NCBI GenBank assembly: GCA_014802435.1 | Contig: JAAVCG010000001.1 | Location: forward strand, 1 to 56,230 | From: Bacteroides sp. | GTDB taxonomy: Bacteria > Bacteroidota > Bacteroidia > Bacteroidales > Muribaculaceae | DNA length: 56,230 nucleotides | Direction: 5' to 3' | In this document: positions 13,510-49,730 of the stretch, one piece after another | Layout of the letters: each line of letters begins with the position of its first letter | Numbering within the stretch: the first letter of the stretch is position 1 | Notes under the pieces: model-generated | Told to the model about the DNA's origin: nothing | What the model saw: only the letters and a program-made list of their open reading frames with translations | Database searches by the model: none | Translations under genes and position numbers: made by a program

Positions 13510-14202
13510 TCAGCGGCTCGGGCGCATCAGCGGGAGCCCGGATTCAGTCAGCGCAAAGTTGATGAAATCATTCAGGCGCTTGATTTGAGCCAGGGCCGGC
13601 AGCAAGCGTTCAATGAAATCAGGACGGTTGAAAAAGGCGTCAGGCAACGGCATCATGACTCCAAATTCGCGCGGACGGAGATAGTCAATGTATTGCCAGT
13701 CACGGTCAAATCCCTTGGGGGCGGTTTTGAGCAGATTGCTCCCCACTTCCGGGAAAAACTCCTTGAACTCGGCCGATTCAACTATGGCGAGATATTCATC
13801 AATGTTATCGCGAATGTCATTGCGGATAGCCGTCAGATAAGGAGTTGGAAGTTCATAATTTCCGCCATAAAGCGCCGAGGCACCGGGTTCGAGATGAAGA
13901 TAATAGCCCGAGAGGAGTGACTTCTTGCCCAAGGGAGGACAGATAAAGATTCCGATATGAGTCTTATAGGGAGTCTTATCTTCAGAGAAACGAGTGTCAC
14001 GCATCAGGCGATAGACGCATTGATTGACCGACATTGCGGCCGCCTCCGGCTCAATTGACGCTATGGCATCAATCAGTCGCTGAGTCAGCTCGTTACGCTC
14101 CTCCATCACGGCGTTATATTCCGCCTTATGTTCGGCGAGCCATTCGCGCGAGTTATTGCGCTTGAGCTGCTTGAGGAATGTGAGGATTCTGTTTTTCATC
14201 AT
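13510..14202 (-). CDS. DUF2461-family protein (TIGR02453-like)
   Basis: About 230 residues beginning MMKNRILTFLKQLKRNNSREWLAEHKAEY, the hallmark of DUF2461 (FLxxLxxNNxREWFxxHK). Further conserved blocks are VYRLMRDTRFSEDKTPYKTHIGIFI and GYYLHLEPGASALYGGNY. The function of the family is unknown; no membrane or export signals are present. The start is the ATG at 14202, 4 nt after the stop of the upstream HAD gene, which makes it the last gene of the five-gene operon. The frame is open further upstream inside the HAD gene but has no family similarity there. Confidence 0.9.
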   Translation of the reverse strand: MMKNRILTFLKQLKRNNSREWLAEHKAEYNAVMEERNELTQRLIDAIASIEPEAAAMSVNQCVYRLMRDTRFSEDKTPYKTHIGIFICPPLGKKSLLSGYYLHLEPGASALYGGNYELPTPYLTAIRNDIRDNIDEYLAIVESAEFKEFFPEVGSNLLKTAPKGFDRDWQYIDYLRPREFGVMMPLPDAFFNRPDFIERLLPALAQIKRLNDFINFALTESGLPLMRPSR

Positions 14203-14206
14203 TAAG

Positions 14207-14890
14207 TTACTGAAGGAGTGAGCTGAGGGAAGGAATCTGAGAGGGATGGGTCTGCGCATCCTCATCGGCAGTCCATCCCTTGCCCTTAATCCAGGCGGTT
14301 TGACAGCCGATGGATTCCGCCGGGAGGATGTCCTTTTTGAGGCTGTCGCCAACGACGAGTACCTCCTCCGCCGGCAATCCGAGGGCCTCAACCCCCAGGC
14401 GAAAAATGGCGGGGTCAGGCTTGCGCACGCCAACGACCGCACTCTCTATAATCCGGGGAAAATAGCGCAGCAGGTCAAAATCAGAAAGCACCGCCGATAC
14501 ATTGCCATAAAAATTGCTGACCAAAACCAGAGGATAACGGGCCGAAAGAGCCTCAAGAACGGGGCGCGATTCCTCAACACATTCGCGGGCCGAGTCATAA
14601 CAATATCGGGCGATTGATTCGCAGCGTTCCGGAGTAAAAATCCCGAGGAATTCAAGCTCAATTTTGACTTTTTTGCGCATGAGTTCGAGGAAATTATCCT
14701 CCGGGAGGATGATTTGACTCTTGGCCAGGGCGCGCTCGGCATGAACATAAGCCTCGCGAAATTGCTCCTTGGTGACGGCGACGGCAGCTCTCTGCCATCC
14801 GGCCCAAATCACTTCACTCCAATGCACTCCGCGGCTATCCAGGGTGCCGCCATAGTCAAAAATTATCCCTTTAATCTTGTTCCAGTTCAT
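14207..14890 (-). CDS. HAD-superfamily phosphatase in head-group operon
   Basis: A 227-residue HAD-IA hydrolase. Motif I reads IIFDYGGTLDS, so the nucleophile Asp is present but the second Asp of DxDGT is Gly, a variant also common in related HAD enzymes. Motif II is the Ser of LVLVSNFYGN, motif III has VRKPDPAIF, and motif IV is VLVVGDSLKKDILPA. It is expected to dephosphorylate a small phosphoester. Its start overlaps the end of the CDP-alcohol phosphotransferase gene by 20 nt, which strongly suggests a role in the same pathway, perhaps removing a phosphate from the transferase product or precursor (inference). Confidence 0.88.
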   Translation of the reverse strand: MNWNKIKGIIFDYGGTLDSRGVHWSEVIWAGWQRAAVAVTKEQFREAYVHAERALAKSQIILPEDNFLELMRKKVKIELEFLGIFTPERCESIARYCYDSARECVEESRPVLEALSARYPLVLVSNFYGNVSAVLSDFDLLRYFPRIIESAVVGVRKPDPAIFRLGVEALGLPAEEVLVVGDSLKKDILPAESIGCQTAWIKGKGWTADEDAQTHPSQIPSLSSLLQ

Positions 14891-15797
14891 TTGTAATCTT
14901 CTTGCAAATTGATTCGTGACGCCACATCATATAGGCCATAATCGCGTTGAACACCGTCAGCTCGGCAACGAAGTAGAGCCAGGGCATCCGGAGGAAGAGC
15001 GAGATGAAGAGAGTGATTGAGCGCCAATTGAATGACAGGATGTTAGTATACTTCATGAGCGGTAGGCTCAGGGCGCGAAATTGGTCGCGCAGCGCTTGCG
15101 GCACATTGCCGTCGGGGTACTTGCGGAGCATCGCGGCGCGCATTTTCTGCATTTGAGGCGTGCGCGATTCCTGGCCGGAGGTATAGTTCATGTAGAACCA
15201 TTGAATCAGCAGGTTGAAAAATCCGGCGCCCTCCTTTTTGCTCTGCTCGAACTTTTTGCGAAGGGCCGACGCATTGTCAAGCTCGCTCTTGCCATTGACG
15301 CAGAGCAGATGCATCTGCCGATAATAGTCGGCCATCGAGGCCTGAGTGGCATGACAGATTCCGGCAGCGACGGCCAGGGTCCATACAACCCATGAATGGG
15401 CGCTGAAAAATTCAGATGTGTTGTTGACGCGCAGACAGATGCAGACGTAGATTGCGATAAACCAGAAATCGCCGGCCATGCCGTCAAGAATTCGGCCCAG
15501 ACGGGAATATTGCTTGGTCATGCGCGCAAGCTGTCCGTCGGCCGAATCAAAGGCGTCGGCCAGAATCAGAAGTAACATTCCGCAGACATTCACCCAGATA
15601 TTCGTCGGGTAAAAGCAGATGCCCGCAGCCACTCCAATGAAGATTGAAGCGATAGTGATGGCATTAGGCGAGATATGGAGTGAACGGCCTATACAGGCGA
15701 AGAAATAGCCCAGACGGCGATAAAAATAGAGGTCGATATGCTCTTCCGTATCCGGACTTTTCAGCGTTGATTCAAATTCTTCTTTGCTAAATTTCAT
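14871..15797 (-). CDS. CDP-alcohol phosphatidyltransferase family membrane enzyme
   Basis: A 308-residue inner membrane protein that should transfer a phospho-alcohol group from a CDP-linked donor, releasing CMP. The signature is DSADGQLARM (D84, D87, G88, A91, R92), then G101 and D105, with the next Asp at 110. That gives D-x4-D rather than the usual D-x3-D, which may mark a subfamily. An amphipathic N-terminus (about 1-45) precedes several membrane segments (SIFIGVAAGICFY, VCGMLLLILADAF, FWFIAIYVCICL, WTLAVAAGICHA, and two C-terminal). The gene overlaps the ATP-grasp gene by 4 nt upstream and the HAD gene by 20 nt downstream. Acceptor and donor are not identifiable. Confidence 0.9.
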   Translation of the reverse strand: MKFSKEEFESTLKSPDTEEHIDLYFYRRLGYFFACIGRSLHISPNAITIASIFIGVAAGICFYPTNIWVNVCGMLLLILADAFDSADGQLARMTKQYSRLGRILDGMAGDFWFIAIYVCICLRVNNTSEFFSAHSWVVWTLAVAAGICHATQASMADYYRQMHLLCVNGKSELDNASALRKKFEQSKKEGAGFFNLLIQWFYMNYTSGQESRTPQMQKMRAAMLRKYPDGNVPQALRDQFRALSLPLMKYTNILSFNWRSITLFISLFLRMPWLYFVAELTVFNAIMAYMMWRHESICKKITNELEQD

Positions 15798-16609
15798 AAT
15801 AGTTGGGATATTGCTTTGCCGGCGGCTTCACGGCAGGGCGAGAAGCTGGGCCAGTCATTGAAATCAATAATTTTAATGGTTCCGTCAGGGCTGACAATGG
15901 CGTCGCCGCCATAAACGCTGACGTTAACCGCGCGCGAGGCCTCGGAGCAGATTTGCCGCAACCGGCTCTCATCAAAGGCAATTCCGGCGCTATGGCCGTT
16001 AATTTCTTCATAGCCGAATTTGGAGTGGCCATGCTCCAGGGGGTAGAACCAATAAAAGAAATCGGTTCCTTCAACTCCATAGAACTTAATCAGGTCTCCG
16101 TCAAGGTGCTGGCAAATCACTGCGCGCCGGATTCCGCGGGAGTCAAAGGCACGGAGGGCGGCTTCAACATCGGCCCGTGAGCGGCAGAAGCTAACGTCAG
16201 CCTTCTGCATAGTCTGGCCGTCGGCCCGTTTCACCCAGCAGGGCAGCGGGACATCGGCGGGCAGCGGCTCCGAGCTCTCCAGAATCAGTGAACGCGGAGA
16301 GGCCACTCCGGCCTGCTCAAAGCATCTGACCAGGGGTTCGCGGCGACAGTTGTCAACTCCCTGCGGCGAGTTGATTATGCGTATCCCCTGCCCTTCCATC
16401 TGCTTAAGCAGCGAAACCGAGCGCTCTGACCGACACATCTGAATGATGGCATCAACCCGCTCCACGCCGGTCAGCTCCCGCTCGGAAATAACCGTCACCT
16501 CATGGCCCTGCAGGCGCAGATTGTCGGCAGCTTCCGCCAGAATTTTGGCATCATTATCAACCAGATTGGGCGAAAATTCCTCGCCCCGGGCAATGGCTAA
16601 TATCTTCAT
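15794..16609 (-). CDS. ATP-grasp ligase-like protein
   Basis: A 271-residue cytoplasmic protein with an ATP-grasp/RimK-like order: an N-terminal Rossmann-like domain (MKILAIARGEEFSP...VTVISERELT), the lid and ATP-binding part (CWVKRADGQTMQKADVSFC, VICQHLDGDLIKFYGVEG), and the metal-binding end VYGGDAIVSPDGTIKIIDFNDWPSF, where the D and IDFNDWPS residues take the place of the Mg ligands. Such enzymes join a carboxylate to an amine or thiol via an acylphosphate. It is translationally coupled by 4-nt overlaps to the nucleotidyltransferase upstream and the CDP-alcohol transferase downstream. The substrate is unknown. Confidence 0.85.
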   Translation of the reverse strand: MKILAIARGEEFSPNLVDNDAKILAEAADNLRLQGHEVTVISERELTGVERVDAIIQMCRSERSVSLLKQMEGQGIRIINSPQGVDNCRREPLVRCFEQAGVASPRSLILESSEPLPADVPLPCWVKRADGQTMQKADVSFCRSRADVEAALRAFDSRGIRRAVICQHLDGDLIKFYGVEGTDFFYWFYPLEHGHSKFGYEEINGHSAGIAFDESRLRQICSEASRAVNVSVYGGDAIVSPDGTIKIIDFNDWPSFSPCREAAGKAISQLL

Positions 16610-17310
16610 TTGAGGAGTTCTTTAGCGCGTTGGATATCTGAGAGATGGTCAACGTCTATCACCTTGCCGAAGGCAAAGGCCTCCAGGCGCAGGCCGGCAG
16701 AAATCAGCGCGCGCTGATAATTACGCATACGGCTCACTCCCGCTTCCAGACACTGGCCTAACACACTGATTCCCTTGGGAGTCAGCCCATAAATTCCGGC
16801 CGAAATATATTTTGAACCGGGATAATCAGCATCCTTAAAGCCGAGAATATTCATATCGGCCTCATCTACTTCAACATAAAGGGGCTTTTCATCCTCAATA
16901 TAGTCCGTAACGCCCATCAGTCCGTCAATTTGCTCCGAACTCTCAAAGGCATTGACATAAGCGCGGAAATCCTCGGGGCGGAAAATGGTGTCGACAGTGG
17001 TCAGGACAAATTTCGCGGCTCCGGCAGGAAAAACGCGGCTAACCTCATAGAAAGAATGCATTGACGAGGGAGTAGACTTAACGACGATATGAAACGGCAC
17101 AGGCAAGCGGAGCCCTTCAAGATACTCCCTAACCTCAGTCATCTGCTCATTGACAATGACCGAAAGCGACTCTGCGCCACATTCCATCATAATGTCAATC
17201 AAGCGTTTAATCATAGGCCGGCCATCAAGGTCAACCAACGGCTTAGGGACATTCAACCCTTCGCCAACAAGGCGCGAGCCCTCGCCCGCAGCAATTATAG
17301 CATAATGCAT
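16606..17310 (-). CDS. Sugar/alcohol-phosphate nucleotidyltransferase (MobA/LicC-like)
   Basis: A 234-residue NTP-transferase-fold enzyme, first gene of the operon. The signature AIIAAGEGSRL (residues 4-14) and PKPLVDLDGRPMIKRLID match enzymes that activate a phosphorylated sugar or alcohol with an NTP. TTVDTIF supplies the metal-binding Asp region. With a CDP-alcohol transferase two genes downstream, CTP is the most likely nucleotide, making a CDP-alcohol such as CDP-inositol, CDP-choline or another CDP-polyol (inference). A TAACTTTG box lies 28 nt upstream. It overlaps the ATP-grasp gene by 4 nt. Confidence 0.88.
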   Translation of the reverse strand: MHYAIIAAGEGSRLVGEGLNVPKPLVDLDGRPMIKRLIDIMMECGAESLSVIVNEQMTEVREYLEGLRLPVPFHIVVKSTPSSMHSFYEVSRVFPAGAAKFVLTTVDTIFRPEDFRAYVNAFESSEQIDGLMGVTDYIEDEKPLYVEVDEADMNILGFKDADYPGSKYISAGIYGLTPKGISVLGQCLEAGVSRMRNYQRALISAGLRLEAFAFGKVIDVDHLSDIQRAKELLK

Positions 17311-44865: not shown

Positions 44866-45263
44866 GGTGGAGTTGGGGGGATTTGAACCCCCGTCCAAAC
44901 GTGGAATTGATGAGTTTTCTACATGCTTATTCCCGAGTTGGTTTTCGAGCCGTGGCAGGAACGGGACCTCCAACCATGGCCTTAGCTTCTAAAATTTCGG
45001 GCAAACCTCGAAGCTCGGCTTTCCCTATACCCGATTTAGCTGCACCGCCTTATCGAGGAGTCTCGGGTCCAGGACTCTCGGGCGATGTCTCGTCCGCGTA
45101 ACTGTTACGCGGATAAAGCTGATCTACTATACTTCAATCAAGCAGCGAGAGCGTAGTTGTTTTCGCCATTTGAAATTTTGATGTCAGAGATTTAAGAGCT
45201 TAGGCATCATTGCTCTGCATGCTTGCTGACCACTTCTACACGCTGTCAAAACCGGTCAACCCC
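44866..45263 (-). ncRNA. ssrA: tmRNA (transfer-messenger RNA)
   Basis: A one-piece tmRNA of about 398 nt that rescues stalled ribosomes. The 5' acceptor strand GGGGTTG (45263-45257) pairs with CAACTCC (44875-44869, one G-U). The T-arm reads GACGGGGGTTCAAATCCCCC. The tag frame starts at GGC (45167) and reads GENNYALAA-stop (45167-45138), the Bacteroidetes type. The 3' end is encoded as A-CC-C, so the final A of CCA must be added. Pseudoknot-rich sequence fills the rest. It diverges from tRNA-Pro. Confidence 0.96.
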
Positions 45264-45281
45264 ATTCTCTAATGAGGACTG

Positions 45282-45312
45282 CAAATTTACGCATTTTCCG
45301 CGAATAATGCAA
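45282..45312 (-). promoter_or_regulatory. Promoter of tmRNA
   Basis: On the minus strand, TTG (45310-45312), 20 nt, TAAATTTG (45282-45289), 18 nt upstream of the tmRNA 5' end. Confidence 0.7.
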
Positions 45313-45399
45313 TAGTTTATGGAGATTTTTTGGCATAAAAATTTTTCTCCCTGTAAATCAACGTTTTAAAAAATTTTTGTAAAAAAAGTTGCAAAAATA

Positions 45400-45431
45400 T
45401 TTGGTGGTTTCAAAAAAACCTCGTAACTTTG
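45400..45431 (+). promoter_or_regulatory. Promoter of tRNA-Pro
   Basis: TTTG (45400-45403), 20 nt, TAACTTTG (45424-45431), 19 nt before the tRNA. Confidence 0.8.
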
Positions 45432-45450
45432 CAGTGCTTTTAAGGCCCAG

Positions 45451-45528
45451 CGGGGTGTAGCTCAGCCCGGTTAGAGTACGCGTCTGGGGGGCGTGTGGTC
45501 GCAAGTTCGAATCTTGTCACCCCGACCA
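45451..45528 (+). tRNA. tRNA-Pro (GGG)
   Basis: Acceptor CGGGGTG pairs with CACCCCG, the C1-G72 pair typical of bacterial tRNA-Pro. D-arm GCTC/GAGT. The anticodon loop CTGGGGG gives anticodon GGG. T-arm CAAGTTCGAATCTTG. The 3' ACCA is encoded. Confidence 0.96.
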
Positions 45529-45548
45529 AGCAAAAGCCTAAAGCAACG

Positions 45549-45587
45549 AATCGCTGAACCATCCCCGGTTCAGCGATTCCTTTTTTT
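45549..45587 (+). terminator. Terminator of tRNA-Pro
   Basis: A perfect 12-bp stem AATCGCTGAACC/GGTTCAGCGATT, loop ATCCCC, then CC and seven T. Confidence 0.93.
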
Positions 45588-45597
45588 GTGCCCCACC

Positions 45598-45708
45598 CTA
45601 TGGAAAGGCGGATTCCGATCCGCCGCCACGTCTGCGGGGATTGTGCATTCCTGGGGTCATGAGCATGAGCCAGAGCGGTGGCGGCGGATCGGAATCCGCC
45701 TTTCCATA
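45598..45708. repeat. Inverted pair of dispersed palindromic elements, copies 5 and 6
   Basis: Copy 5 (45598-45629, plus) and copy 6 (45678-45708, inverted) face each other across 48 bp, like the pair at 17407-17555 but with a different centre. The shared arm begins CTATGGAAAGGCGGATTCCG. The pair lies between two tRNA terminators with no gene. Confidence 0.88.
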
Positions 45709-45733
45709 AGGTTTTCGCCAAGATATAGCCAGC

Positions 45734-45773
45734 AAAAAGGAAATGCTGAGATGGGGATGACCATTCTCAGCAT
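45734..45773 (-). terminator. Terminator of tRNA-Arg
   Basis: On the minus strand, a 9-bp stem ATGCTGAGA/TCTCAGCAT with a 13-nt loop, followed by TTCCTTTTTG. Confidence 0.8.
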
Positions 45774-45785
45774 CGGTTCTTTTTG

Positions 45786-45857
45786 TAGGCCCGAGGGGAA
45801 TCGAACCCCTATCTAAGGTTTAGGAAACCTCTATTCTATCCGTTGAACTACAGGCCC
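45786..45857 (-). tRNA. tRNA-Arg (CCT)
   Basis: On the minus strand, acceptor GGGCCTG pairs with CGGGCCT (with G-U pairs). The anticodon loop TTCCTAA reads CCT, decoding AGG. T-arm AGGGGTTCGATTCCCCT. CCA is not encoded after the discriminator A. The terminator at 45734 follows. Confidence 0.93.
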
Positions 45858-45876
45858 GGATTCTCTTGAACGAGTG

Positions 45877-45884
45877 CAAAGTTA
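45877..45884 (-). promoter_or_regulatory. Promoter -7 box of tRNA-Arg
   Basis: TAACTTTG on the minus strand, 19 nt before the tRNA 5' end, as for tRNA-Pro. Confidence 0.7.
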
Positions 45885-45927
45885 GTGATTTTTTTTGTGA
45901 AAATTTAGTTTTTACTGAATTTTTTCG

Positions 45928-45935
45928 TAACTTTG
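45928..45935 (+). promoter_or_regulatory. Promoter -7 box of the psd-pssA operon
   Basis: TAACTTTG, 27 nt before the ATG at 45963. It overlaps an in-frame TTG (45933), which is therefore not the start. Confidence 0.7.
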
Positions 45936-45962
45936 CGGAAATTTTATTGCTTGACTTTAATA

Positions 45963-46682
45963 ATGGCTAAACTGCATAAGAAACTGAAACGTGTAAAAAT
46001 TCATCGCGAAGGCACTGATATTCTGGTCGTTACCTTTGTGCTGCTTTTGATTTTAAACGTCCTTATCTGGTCGCTTTCAACCCCCTGGGGCATTGCGACG
46101 TCCATTATCACGGGTATCTTCTACTTACTTTTAGTCAACTTTTTCCGCTCGCCGAAGCGCCATTTTACCGGCAACGAAGAAAACGTTGTGGTCAGCTCCG
46201 TCGACGGCACAGTCGTTGCGCTTGAAGAAGTCTATGAGCCGGAATATTTGAAGCGCAATTGCATCCAGTTGAGCGTCTTCATGACTCTATTTGACGTTCA
46301 CGCCAACTGGTTCCCGGTCAATGGCGAGGTAATTTACACAGCCCATCACCATGGACGCTTCATGAGCGCATGGCTCCCCAAGTCAAGCACTGAAAATGAA
46401 CGGTCAACAATCGTTATCCGCACTGACGACGGCCAGGAAATCCTCGTGCGCCAAATTGCCGGCGCTATGGCCCGCCGAATCGTAACGTATGCCGAACCGG
46501 GCATGGAGGCTAACATTGAGGACCATATGGGCTTCATCAAATTCGGCTCGCGAGTTGACATCTTCCTGCCGCTCAACACTGAAATCCTGACCCAACTAAA
46601 ACAAAAAACCATTGGCGGCATAACTGAAATTGCCCGCCTGCGCCCTGAATCAGAGGCGAACAATAAGGAAGGAGAAAACTAA
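45963..46682 (+). CDS. psd: Phosphatidylserine decarboxylase proenzyme
   Basis: A 239-residue short-form (PSD-A/archaeal-like) enzyme that converts phosphatidylserine to phosphatidylethanolamine. It has two N-terminal membrane segments (ILVVTFVLLLILNVLIWSL and GIATSIITGIFYLLLVNFF), then FFRSPKR, VVSSVDGTVV, LSVFMTLFDVHANWFPVNG with the conserved His, and GFIKFGSRVDIFLP. Self-cleavage at Gly195-Ser196 makes the pyruvoyl group. The start is the ATG at 45963, downstream of the -7 box. The stop overlaps the pssA start by 1 nt (TAATG), so the two steps of phosphatidylethanolamine synthesis are coupled. Confidence 0.96.
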   Translation: MAKLHKKLKRVKIHREGTDILVVTFVLLLILNVLIWSLSTPWGIATSIITGIFYLLLVNFFRSPKRHFTGNEENVVVSSVDGTVVALEEVYEPEYLKRNCIQLSVFMTLFDVHANWFPVNGEVIYTAHHHGRFMSAWLPKSSTENERSTIVIRTDDGQEILVRQIAGAMARRIVTYAEPGMEANIEDHMGFIKFGSRVDIFLPLNTEILTQLKQKTIGGITEIARLRPESEANNKEGEN

Positions 46683-47347
46683 TGAAACGCTATTTCAGCT
46701 GGCTCCCTAACGCCATCACCTGCCTGAACCTTACTTCCGGATGCGTAGCCCTGGTGCTCGCTTTCAACGGTTTTTATGGCTATGCCTCACTGGCAATCTG
46801 TGCAGCGGCCGTTTTTGACTTCCTTGATGGCGCCGTGGCCCGCCTGATGGGCGCTTATTCGGACATAGGCGCCGAACTTGACTCTCTCAGTGACCTGGTC
46901 AGCTTTGGCGTTGCCCCCGGCCTGATGGTCTATTGCCAGCTCCCCGCGCCTTATAATATAGTGGCCGTAATGATTCCTGTCTGCGGCGCCCTCCGCCTGG
47001 CCCGGTTCAATGTCGATACGCGCCAGACTACTTCATTCATCGGCCTGCCCATCCCCGCAAACGCCCTCTTCTGGATTGGCATGACCGCATTCTGGCAGGG
47101 CTCAGTCCTGATGAATGAAATCTTAGTGTGGACGCTGTGTGTCGTGTTCATCTCCCTGGCCATGCTTGCGCCCATCAATCTCCCCTCGCTTAAGTTTCAT
47201 GACTTCAAGTTTGCGGGTGAAAACCGCGTGCGCTATCTGCTTATCGTACTGACTATCGCCCTGTTAGCCCTGTTCGGCGTCCCCGGATTGGCCTTAGTGA
47301 TCATCGTCTATCTGATGCTTGGCGCAATCTCCGCCTTCATTAAGTAA
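46682..47347 (+). CDS. pssA: CDP-diacylglycerol-serine O-phosphatidyltransferase
   Basis: A 221-residue inner membrane enzyme that makes phosphatidylserine from CDP-diacylglycerol and serine. It begins MKRYFSWLPNAITCLNLTSGC, typical for the family. The CDP-alcohol signature is DGAVARLMGAYSDIGAELDSLSD, with the canonical D-x3-D ending. Six to seven membrane segments follow. Its product feeds the decarboxylase encoded just upstream. Confidence 0.96.
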   Translation: MKRYFSWLPNAITCLNLTSGCVALVLAFNGFYGYASLAICAAAVFDFLDGAVARLMGAYSDIGAELDSLSDLVSFGVAPGLMVYCQLPAPYNIVAVMIPVCGALRLARFNVDTRQTTSFIGLPIPANALFWIGMTAFWQGSVLMNEILVWTLCVVFISLAMLAPINLPSLKFHDFKFAGENRVRYLLIVLTIALLALFGVPGLALVIIVYLMLGAISAFIK

Positions 47348-47376
47348 TCCCCTCCGCGCCGCCCCGCCTTCTCCTT

Positions 47377-47703
47377 ATGATAACAGTACTGATAATCATA
47401 ATCTTAGCCTATCTGTTTTGGCGCTACGTCGTGCCCTATCTGATTCGCCGAAAACTTGAAAAGACCTTCGGTTTTGACCCGCGTAACGCTCAGAATCAGC
47501 GCCGGCAGCGTCAGCAAACTCAACCTCAACAGCCTGCCCATAAAAAAATCATTGACCCGACTGTCGGCGAATACGTTGAGTTTACCGAAACGGAGACAAC
47601 CACACGAGTGGAAACCCCGGAAGGAACTGAAACGACCACCGTCACCGAACAGCAAATAACCGATATTCAATGGGAAGACCTGCCCCCGAAGGAATCCGAA
47701 TAA
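47377..47703 (+). CDS. DUF4834-family small membrane protein
   Basis: A 108-residue protein with one N-terminal membrane segment (VLIIIILAYLFWRYVVPYL), a basic stretch, a Q-rich linker (QNQRRQRQQTQPQQP) and an acidic Thr/Glu tail (FTETETTTRVETPEG, ending PPKESE). This layout matches DUF4834 from Bacteroidetes, which I recall near phospholipid genes. Function unknown. The last 34 nt overlap the next gene. Confidence 0.82.
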   Translation: MITVLIIIILAYLFWRYVVPYLIRRKLEKTFGFDPRNAQNQRRQRQQTQPQQPAHKKIIDPTVGEYVEFTETETTTRVETPEGTETTTVTEQQITDIQWEDLPPKESE

Positions 47704-48275
47704 TCGACGCTACGATTGACGACGCTCCGATGATTGCCCGCGCCATTATGGACGCCGTCGGACCTGAGATAGTCAACGGAATGGCCGGCGAAAACGGCTC
47801 GGCCGACGATGTCTTCGGTGTCTTTACTCGCCTTGCCCGCCGCGATGACTCCCAATATTCTTACCTCAACACGCGCATAGCCTTAGCCCCCGACGGCCAA
47901 AAGGCCGGAGTGTGCGTCAGCTATAGCGGCAAAGAATTGATCCCACTCCGCCGAGCCTTCTTTAATGAGGCCCGCCAAGTGTTCGGATGGCAATTAACTC
48001 CTGAAGAAGTGGATTCACTCCCCGGCGAAACCACCCCTGAAGAATTCTATCTCGACACCCTCTCCACCCTCCCCAAATATCGCGGCCAAGGGATAGCAAC
48101 CGCCCTGATTGCCGATGCCAAACTCAAGGCAGACCAATGCGGCCTCCCACTGGGGCTTCTATGCGCCGATGATAACCCAAGGGCCCGCAAACTCTACGAA
48201 TCTATTGGTTTCCAGCCCGTTGGGCGCCGTCTGTTTGCCGGTGAAGAAATGACAAATATGCGCCTGATTGAATAA
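47670..48275 (+). CDS. GNAT acetyltransferase
   Basis: A 201-residue cytoplasmic enzyme with a single GNAT domain: IRIIDATIDDAPMIARAIMDAVG at the start, then YLDTLSTLPKYRGQGIATALI (acetyl-CoA loop) and DDNPRARKLYESIGFQPVGRRLF. The substrate is unknown. The start overlaps DUF4834 by 34 nt. The upstream in-frame start could be at any of the first codons before IRIIDA; I keep the first ATG. Confidence 0.88.
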   Translation: MGRPAPEGIRIIDATIDDAPMIARAIMDAVGPEIVNGMAGENGSADDVFGVFTRLARRDDSQYSYLNTRIALAPDGQKAGVCVSYSGKELIPLRRAFFNEARQVFGWQLTPEEVDSLPGETTPEEFYLDTLSTLPKYRGQGIATALIADAKLKADQCGLPLGLLCADDNPRARKLYESIGFQPVGRRLFAGEEMTNMRLIE

Positions 48276-48277
48276 TT

Positions 48278-48347
48278 GCGTAAATTTTACACAAAATATT
48301 TGGCCGATTCAAAAATTATGCCTAACTTTGCAGTGTAAATATTACAC
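48278..48347. promoter_or_regulatory. Two palindromic operators flanking the ARH/NrtR promoter
   Basis: Box 1 GCGTAAATTTTACAC (48278-48292) and box 2 GTGTAAATATTACAC (48333-48347, perfect palindrome) lie 55 bp apart (centre to centre). The promoter sits between: TTG (48300-48302), 20 nt, TAACTTTG (48323-48330). Both extend with CAAA. The arrangement, upstream of -33 and at the transcription start, is typical of a repressor binding both sides. The likely binder is the NrtR protein at 49733 (inference). Confidence 0.75.
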
Positions 48348-48368
48348 AAACTCTAAATTATTACAATT

Positions 48369-49730
48369 ATGTTAGGCGCAATTATCGGCGACATCATCGG
48401 CAGTCGCCACGAATTTCATCCCACGAACAATTACGATTTCCACCTCTTCACTAACCGCTGCTTCTTCACCGACGACACCATCTGCACCTTCGGAGTTGCC
48501 GACGCACTGGTCAAATCCGAGTCTTATGCCGAGTCCATCCACTCATGGTGTCAAAAATACCCCCATGCCGGCTATGGCGGCCACTTCTACGGCTGGGTAC
48601 ATACCGCTAATCCGCAACCCTACGGATCATTCGGCAATGGCTCGGCAATGCGCGTAAGCCCCATCGGATGGTGGTTTTTCACGGCAGAAGAAGTTCTTGA
48701 AGAAGCGAAAAAGACGGCTGAATGTTCTCACAATCATCCCTTTGGAATTGCCGGAGCTCAAGCTGTAGCCATCGCCATCCATGACTGCCTCAAGCTGCGC
48801 AGAAGCCATCACGGCGGCTCCATCTCACGCGATGACATCCTCAACATAGGCCTGCGTCGCGCAATCCAATTCTACGAGTCGGACCACACGAAATTCCACC
48901 TCAATATTGAACACCATCGCAACATCTTCGACGAAACCTGTCAAGGCACCGTCCCCGTGGCCCTCGCAATCATTCTCCAAAGCCAGGGATTTGAAGACGC
49001 CGTGCGTCGCGCTGTCAGCCTCGGTGCAGATGCCGACACTCTCGGAGCCATCGTTGGCAGCATAGCCGAAGCCATCTGGGGAATACCCGAATGGATAAAA
49101 CAGAAAGCGCTGACCTATCTCGACCCCGAAATGCTCGCCCTCCTCAAGGACTTCCGCCACAAACTCCACCTTCGTCGCAAAAAATATGAGGAGGAACAAG
49201 AAGACAAAATACAACAGCATATGCTACTAATGCGCTGGAAACTCGGACTGGGCAACATGAACGACATTATGTTTGACACCCCTACCCCTTCTCCGCAGAA
49301 AACCCGCATCGCCACGGCCGACATGATGGAAATCACCCCGATACCCTCCGAGGACAAATCCATATGTACGGACTGGAAATATGGCTATCTATCTCACGAG
49401 CAGATGGATATTCTTAAGATGGGCCACATCCCCGAATCGCAGGAAGACCATTGGTTCATGTACTATGATCCCAAGGATATGACCCTCCACTATATTCGCA
49501 GCTGGACCGGAATGGAGGCGTTCACGGTCTATCTCAGCGGATATTCACGCGGAATAATAATTAAGAAAGTAGAAATCAACCGAAACCTTGCCACATTTGG
49601 CGTCAACGGGGATGATTCAGCCCTTGCTCTATTAAACTATCTGCTGACGGCAGAAACGGGTTTAGACGCCGAAACTGCCTGGAAAGAATATCTCCGGGTC
49701 TGGGCATATACTGAAAATAAATATAACTGA
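48369..49730 (+). CDS. ADP-ribosylglycohydrolase (ARH/DraG family) with extra C-terminal domain
   Basis: A 453-residue protein. Residues 1-260 form an ARH domain that should remove ADP-ribose from proteins or small molecules. The start MLGAIIGDIIGSRHEF, the metal-binding FTDDTICTFGVADAL, and SLGADADTLGAIVGSIAEAIWG carry the binuclear metal ligands. A charged helical linker follows (residues 255-290: LKDFRHKLHLRRKKYEEEQ). Then comes a C-terminal domain of about 125 residues (YLSHEQMDILKMGHIPESQEDHWFMYYD...) that I do not recognise. It is in an operon with the NrtR-type regulator 2 nt downstream, behind a two-operator promoter, so ADP-ribose/NAD status probably controls it. Confidence 0.92.
   Translation: MLGAIIGDIIGSRHEFHPTNNYDFHLFTNRCFFTDDTICTFGVADALVKSESYAESIHSWCQKYPHAGYGGHFYGWVHTANPQPYGSFGNGSAMRVSPIGWWFFTAEEVLEEAKKTAECSHNHPFGIAGAQAVAIAIHDCLKLRRSHHGGSISRDDILNIGLRRAIQFYESDHTKFHLNIEHHRNIFDETCQGTVPVALAIILQSQGFEDAVRRAVSLGADADTLGAIVGSIAEAIWGIPEWIKQKALTYLDPEMLALLKDFRHKLHLRRKKYEEEQEDKIQQHMLLMRWKLGLGNMNDIMFDTPTPSPQKTRIATADMMEITPIPSEDKSICTDWKYGYLSHEQMDILKMGHIPESQEDHWFMYYDPKDMTLHYIRSWTGMEAFTVYLSGYSRGIIIKKVEINRNLATFGVNGDDSALALLNYLLTAETGLDAETAWKEYLRVWAYTENKYN

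Follow-up and report, generated by a model that had tools for sequence, protein, structure and literature searches.

Heaver et al. (2022, PMC9246714) described a "putative alternative inositol lipid cluster", the nearest known relative of the locus treated here; their main text places genes for a nucleotidyltransferase, a CDP-alcohol transferase and a HAD protein near the inositol-phosphate synthase gene (MIPS) in Bacteroides vulgatus and Prevotella, and proposes CDP-inositol without confirming it. A 2023 review, where it touches on the cluster, presents it as an in silico prediction (PMC10191378). The same class of end product is attributed to BT_1522-1526 of Bacteroides thetaiotaomicron, which, as described in the main text, uses CDP-diacylglycerol, a phosphatidylinositol-phosphate (PIP) intermediate and a PgpA-type phosphatase and has no ATP-grasp gene (PMC9246714). 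In Archaeoglobus, IPCT/DIPPS combines a CTP:inositol-phosphate cytidylyltransferase with a transferase that uses CDP-inositol. Jorge et al. 2015, on CDP-inositol lipid synthesis, is said to concern Rhodothermus marinus. Here we compare these systems with a five-gene operon from Bacteroides sp. of the family Muribaculaceae (assembly GCA_014802435.1), located in a stretch of 56,230 nucleotides (the window; JAAVCG010000001.1, contig C1 of a 2.48-Mb, 45-contig assembly that is 98.6% complete).

The operon is a member of the type described by Heaver et al., who had already proposed such a route. Like the published cluster, it encodes a nucleotidyltransferase, a CDP-alcohol transferase and a HAD protein together, in a genome that carries MIPS. 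It differs in that MIPS, usually adjacent, is a single copy on another contig (C6), in that the operon lacks a flippase-like gene, and in the addition of a DUF2461 gene. As in Archaeoglobus, a putative inositol-phosphate cytidylyltransferase is joined by a putative CDP-inositol-using transferase, but as two separate genes, and the transferase motif has another residue in place of its fourth Asp.

The apparent new element of the cluster is an ATP-grasp gene, which encodes an apparently unreported, constant companion enzyme. The term ATP-grasp has no match in the main text of Heaver et al. (PMC9246714), whose figures or supplement may name the gene. Gaps between the B. vulgatus locus tags given there (RS13095, RS13105 and RS13115) leave room for one gene each and, judging from the numbering alone, would fit an ATP-grasp gene and a flippase-like gene. 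Literature searches returned no paper joining CDP-inositol with ATP-grasp, none on inosamine lipid terms and no experimental test of the alternative route. A search combining ATP-grasp, phosphatidylinositol and Bacteroidetes gene clusters gave only work on another ATP-grasp ligase, and one combining inositol lipids, Prevotella and nucleotidyltransferase since 2022 gave only Heaver et al. For ATP-grasp inositol phosphate kinases in prokaryotes, two papers were listed.

A probable CDP-inositol route

We consider it likely that the first four genes build inositol lipids by way of CDP-inositol. Inositol is very probably the head group, because MIPS is linked to and co-occurs with these genes and because of what the nucleotidyltransferase and CDP-alcohol transferase resemble. 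A preliminary description of this DNA, made from its letters, had predicted a CDP-activated head group of unknown identity; given the MIPS linkage, the neighbourhood and the co-occurrence, and given that the grouping of the three enzymes near MIPS had been published, we rejected an unassigned head group in favour of inositol. The same description proposed CTP activation of a phospho-alcohol followed by CDP-alcohol transfer, which the homology of both enzymes bears out, and a route apart from phospholipid synthesis by pssA and psd. Those two genes indeed lie elsewhere in the window (46682-47347 and 45933-46682), and PssA scores above the TIGR00473 cut-off.

All five open reading frames were found at the positions first reported (Table 1). 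The nucleotidyltransferase and ATP-grasp genes overlap by 4 nt, the ATP-grasp and CDP-alcohol transferase genes by 4 nt, and the CDP-alcohol transferase and HAD genes by 20 nt. A 4-nt gap (14203-14206) then precedes the DUF2461 gene if its start is taken at ATG 14202; the frame as listed starts at 14442, with the domain only from residue 86. Pfam scores were 49 bits for NTP_transf_3, 47.3 for CDP-OH_P_transf, 67.2 for Hydrolase and 211.8 for DUF2461.

Table 1. Genes of the operon, in order of transcription
Feature	Position in window	Strand	Basis
Nucleotidyltransferase, 234 aa; probable CTP:inositol-phosphate cytidylyltransferase	16606..17310	-	Pfam, PDB matches, invariant residues
ATP-grasp enzyme, 271 aa; constant cluster member, inositol-phosphate kinase or RimK-like ligase	15794..16609	-	Profiles, predicted fold, relatives
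CDP-alcohol phosphotransferase, 308 aa; Gly in place of fourth motif Asp	14871..15797	-	Pfam, motif, model
HAD-fold protein, 227 aa; uncertain activity, with DYGGT as motif I	14207..14890	-	Pfam, motif
DUF2461/TIGR02453 protein; probable passenger	13510..14202	-	Pfam, NCBIfam, rare linkage

Searched as a single sequence, the nucleotidyltransferase had PDB entry 4jd0 as its top match (E 1.3e-6); with the family profile, 4jd0 came only fourth, behind other sugar nucleotidyltransferases. Residues R13, K23 and D107 are invariant in 24 of 24 aligned sequences. The protein resembles CTP:inositol-1-phosphate cytidylyltransferase, and that activity is probable. The CDP-alcohol transferase scores above the PF01066 cut-off, and its predicted model, which has the CDP-alcohol phosphotransferase fold, is nearest to archaeal AF2299 and IPCT-DIPPS. 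It keeps the first seven signature residues of the motif DxxDGxxARx8GxxxDxxxD and has lost the last Asp. That position is Gly in all 104 clade members (>120 bits, first motif half matching), followed by D in 98, N in 5 and I in 1 (L137), and is also Gly in 11 of 11 transferases from regions outside the order. Six PIP synthases and five weaker paralogues keep the canonical motif.

Motif I of HAD phosphatases is DxDx[TV]. The window protein reads DYGGT, and D-[YF]-G-[GA]-T recurs in 81 of 87 relatives by regular expression and in each of the five missed sequences that were inspected. With the second Asp missing, the label "phosphatase" is unsafe, and the role first assigned to this protein is doubtful.

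The chemical steps, which we infer from gene order, homology, co-occurrence and predicted folds, would begin with MIPS supplying inositol phosphate, from which the nucleotidyltransferase would make CDP-inositol with CTP. The membrane CDP-alcohol transferase would then pass phosphoinositol to diacylglycerol or dihydroceramide as the lipid acceptor, with no PIP intermediate. The HAD and ATP-grasp proteins would have inositol phosphates or the completed inositol lipid as substrates. The window genome encodes a serine palmitoyltransferase. PIP-route enzymes (PIP synthase, PgpA) were not found in it: PF01066 domains occur at three places, all otherwise accounted for (the operon gene, PssA and a stretch of contig C17), and a PgpA search was negative with a control query that matched in 4 of 14 genomes. 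An IPC synthase query, run without a control, had no match in this genome.

Conservation of the neighbourhood

We examined the best 80 of 564 confirmed stretches, picked on the ATP-grasp gene, and counted genes as linked when they were co-oriented with it and no more than 9 kb away. The ATP-grasp gene was linked to the CDP-alcohol transferase in 79 loci, the nucleotidyltransferase in 66, the HAD gene in 66, pdxA in 50 and MIPS in 46. Rarer neighbours were GtrA (11), a flippase-like gene (PF03706; 9), an acyltransferase (9), PIP synthase (5), IPC synthase (5) and DUF2461 (1); in 11 loci neither the nucleotidyltransferase nor PIP synthase was linked. The neighbourhood is thus conserved, a check that the preliminary description had proposed. 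The first four genes recur as a set in other Bacteroidota, in the order nucleotidyltransferase, ATP-grasp, CDP-alcohol transferase, HAD and often with MIPS, so the grouping is more than chance.

Among 198 genomes sampled from the order, the ATP-grasp protein was found in 24, the CDP-alcohol transferase clade (at least 100 bits) in 27 and both in 23. MIPS was present in all 24 ATP-grasp-positive genomes, and ATP-grasp was missing from 7 of 31 MIPS genomes. The family sample had the ATP-grasp gene in 112 of 119 genomes and 30 of 30 genera. Across the phylum it was found in 12 of 296 genomes (E ≤1e-8), 10 of them outside the order, and 11 of 11 regions taken from outside-order genomes have the nucleotidyltransferase, the CDP-alcohol transferase and a D[YF]GGT HAD protein. 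Gene fusions join the nucleotidyltransferase to ATP-grasp (L075, L077, L147) or to both ATP-grasp and the CDP-alcohol transferase (L078). In Phocaeicola massiliensis, P. sartorii and P. paurosaccharolyticus (L111, L159, L130), the order is pdxA, nucleotidyltransferase, ATP-grasp, CDP-alcohol transferase, flippase-like gene, HAD and MIPS, and MIPS also adjoins the cluster in a member of the family (G025, L062). Where linked, pdxA mostly lies immediately upstream of the nucleotidyltransferase gene.

The DUF2461 protein (TIGR02453, 211.5 bits against a cut-off of 105.4) had been counted as part of the pathway. Its linkage in 1 of 80 loci led us to reject it as a cluster member, no gene bears this label in locus L206, which is from the same genus, and it is probably a passenger.

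Two other products were weighed against an inositol lipid. A head group of another kind (glycerate, glycerol or an amino-alcohol) gains some support from CpgD, an inositol-phosphate cytidylyltransferase relative that makes CDP-glycerate in Caulobacter (PMC12275187), and from relatives of the CDP-alcohol transferase in three genomes without MIPS (G039, G121, G142), but we judge it unlikely given the MIPS counts (46 of 80 loci, 24 of 24 genomes). A soluble solute of the di-inositol phosphate type, made by the nucleotidyltransferase and transferase and then a phosphatase as in hyperthermophiles, would account for the pairing of the same two enzyme families in Archaeoglobus IPCT-DIPPS (4mnd) and for the HAD protein that follows in the operon. 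It is very improbable: the HAD protein lacks its usual second Asp, the host encodes serine palmitoyltransferase, and B. vulgatus and Prevotella veroralis, which have the alternative cluster and no BT-type one, are reported in the main text to make phosphoinositol dihydroceramide (PMC9246714).

Some clusters hold further genes. Outside the order, L245, L246, L247, L248, L250, L251 and L253 contain a class-III aminotransferase and a GFO/IDH/MocA oxidoreductase, which could mean an amino-inositol head group; L245-L248 and L250-L253 have MlaE, ABC ATPase and MlaD-like genes between the nucleotidyltransferase and ATP-grasp, which suggests transport of the product lipid. Both sets of calls come from Pfam on L247, the aminotransferase and oxidoreductase being extended to the other regions by similar sequence starts. 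A tandem pair of ATP-grasp genes occurs in L246, L247, L248 and L250. Beside the inositol cluster of L080 (320-13808) and L081 lie a gene resembling serine palmitoyltransferase (62% identity with the window-genome enzyme), a second nucleotidyltransferase paired with a canonical CDP-alcohol transferase and an aminotransferase-like gene, which hints at a ceramide acceptor and a second head group.

The ATP-grasp enzyme

No Pfam or NCBIfam family matched the window ATP-grasp protein above its cut-off; LysX_preATP_grasp scored 16.4 (cut-off 27) and rimK_fam (TIGR00768) 34.2 bits (cut-off 143.4), over residues 30-116 only. The ATP-grasp label rests on this sub-cut-off rimK_fam match, the predicted fold and the relatives. 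A profile search of PDB sequences placed 1z2n, an inositol 1,3,4-trisphosphate 5/6-kinase, first with each of two query alignments (E 1.8e-10 and 1.5e-4), through three stretches of which none is significant singly; RimK reached E 0.0046 with the former and did not fall below 1 with the latter. Near the C end, 128 of 137 sequences have D-x-N-x-x-P-S followed by an aromatic residue; the form shared with 1z2n and ITPK4 in the alignments is D-x-N-x-x-P-S-[FY]. The nine misfits comprise four N-x-N, four S-x-N (two also without the Ser) and one that keeps the Asp with Asp for Asn, and eight of them are of the type of a second copy described below or come from loci with PIP synthase.

Unlike ITPK, an ATP-grasp family defined by PF05770, the window family matches that profile (Ins134_P3_kin) in only 2 of 24 scanned members (best E 2.4e-4), and the window protein has no match at E ≤0.1; other members matched RimK (3) or YheCD (2). 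Among the matches listed, the predicted fold is nearest to RimK, LysX and ArgX; beyond RimK and LysX, the best 50 rows held other ligases, carboxylases and synapsin. ITPK entries were not among the best 50 rows of VIA-align or Foldseek, which does not exclude a likeness to ITPK.

Sequence would point to an inositol-phosphate kinase and predicted fold to a RimK-like ligase, with part of the probability falling to another or a noncatalytic role. Our best guess, held tentatively, is a kinase whose substrate would be either the product of MIPS or the head group of the lipid. Ins(3)P is the product usually given for MIPS, and an Ins(3)P kinase would suit an ATP-grasp gene that is tied to MIPS. ITPK1 can use this substrate (PMC8024741). 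Somewhat less likely is a ligase of the RimK/LysX type, which would join a carboxylate such as an amino acid to a partner protein or to a head group derived from inositol: myo-inositol has neither carboxylate nor amine, and the window operon encodes no aminotransferase (no search for one covered the Bacteroidales loci as a set). RimK-type ligases have E-x-N at the metal motif, where most of the 137 sequences have D-x-N, as in the kinase alignments. Salvage of inositol as the sole role is unlikely, because MIPS was never absent from the 24 ATP-grasp-positive genomes of the order and because inositol itself is reportedly no substrate of the four inositol-phosphate kinase families (PMC8024741).

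The preliminary description was right to ask what an extra ATP-grasp step is for, but the gene is not tied to CDP activation. In L088, L214, L221, L224 and L225 it lies with homologues of GtrA, PIP synthase and IPC synthase, so that a sister-genus gene recalls BT_1522-1526 in its neighbours, and the locus piece has no nucleotidyltransferase or CDP-alcohol transferase. We therefore rejected a CDP-activation step. A search of the whole genome of one of these (G139, with L088) found no CDP-alcohol transferase of the operon clade, and both routes share one locus in, for example, L128, L135, L215, L219 and L222. For route context we examined 20 family loci, selected from the 112 ATP-grasp-positive genomes of the family; 17 were distinct weak or same-genus matches, and L207 repeats the L092 sequence.

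The window genome has a second ATP-grasp gene (C12:69907-70692; L060:9716-10735), between pdxA and an acyltransferase gene. In this copy Asn replaces the metal-binding Asp, and it may be inactive. In a tree of 137 ATP-grasp sequences, built by a quick method, with long branches and without the window gene as a row, the C12 copy fell within a family clade, whereas L092 (76% identical to the window gene) and L206_b, the closest to that gene, fell outside it. This placement is unsure, and we draw no claim of horizontal transfer from it.

Positions ~45203-48646 of the window (~3 kb with pssA) are 98.2% identical to the end of contig C17, reflecting either a duplication or a mixture of strains in the assembly. 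As to a phage link, a single scan of viral_contigs was negative.

Significance

When B. thetaiotaomicron lost its inositol lipids, changes followed in capsule expression, resistance to antimicrobial peptides and fitness in mice (Heaver et al., PMC9246714), and an ATP-grasp gene tied to MIPS offers a concrete missing step for assay. A more speculative possibility is a soluble kinase for inositol phosphate or inositol lipid in Bacteroidota, a bacterial cousin of eukaryotic ITPK that would accompany inositol synthesis and give inositol bisphosphates or phosphoinositides next to either lipid route. In the CDP route, such a kinase could add a second phosphate, after which the head group would be transferred and the first phosphate removed, allowing a choice of the inositol hydroxyl linked to lipid. 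If the ATP-grasp enzyme proves to be a kinase, gut bacteria would have an enzyme of their own for making phosphorylated inositols, which would bear on host signalling and on the origin of the eukaryotic inositol phosphate kinases.
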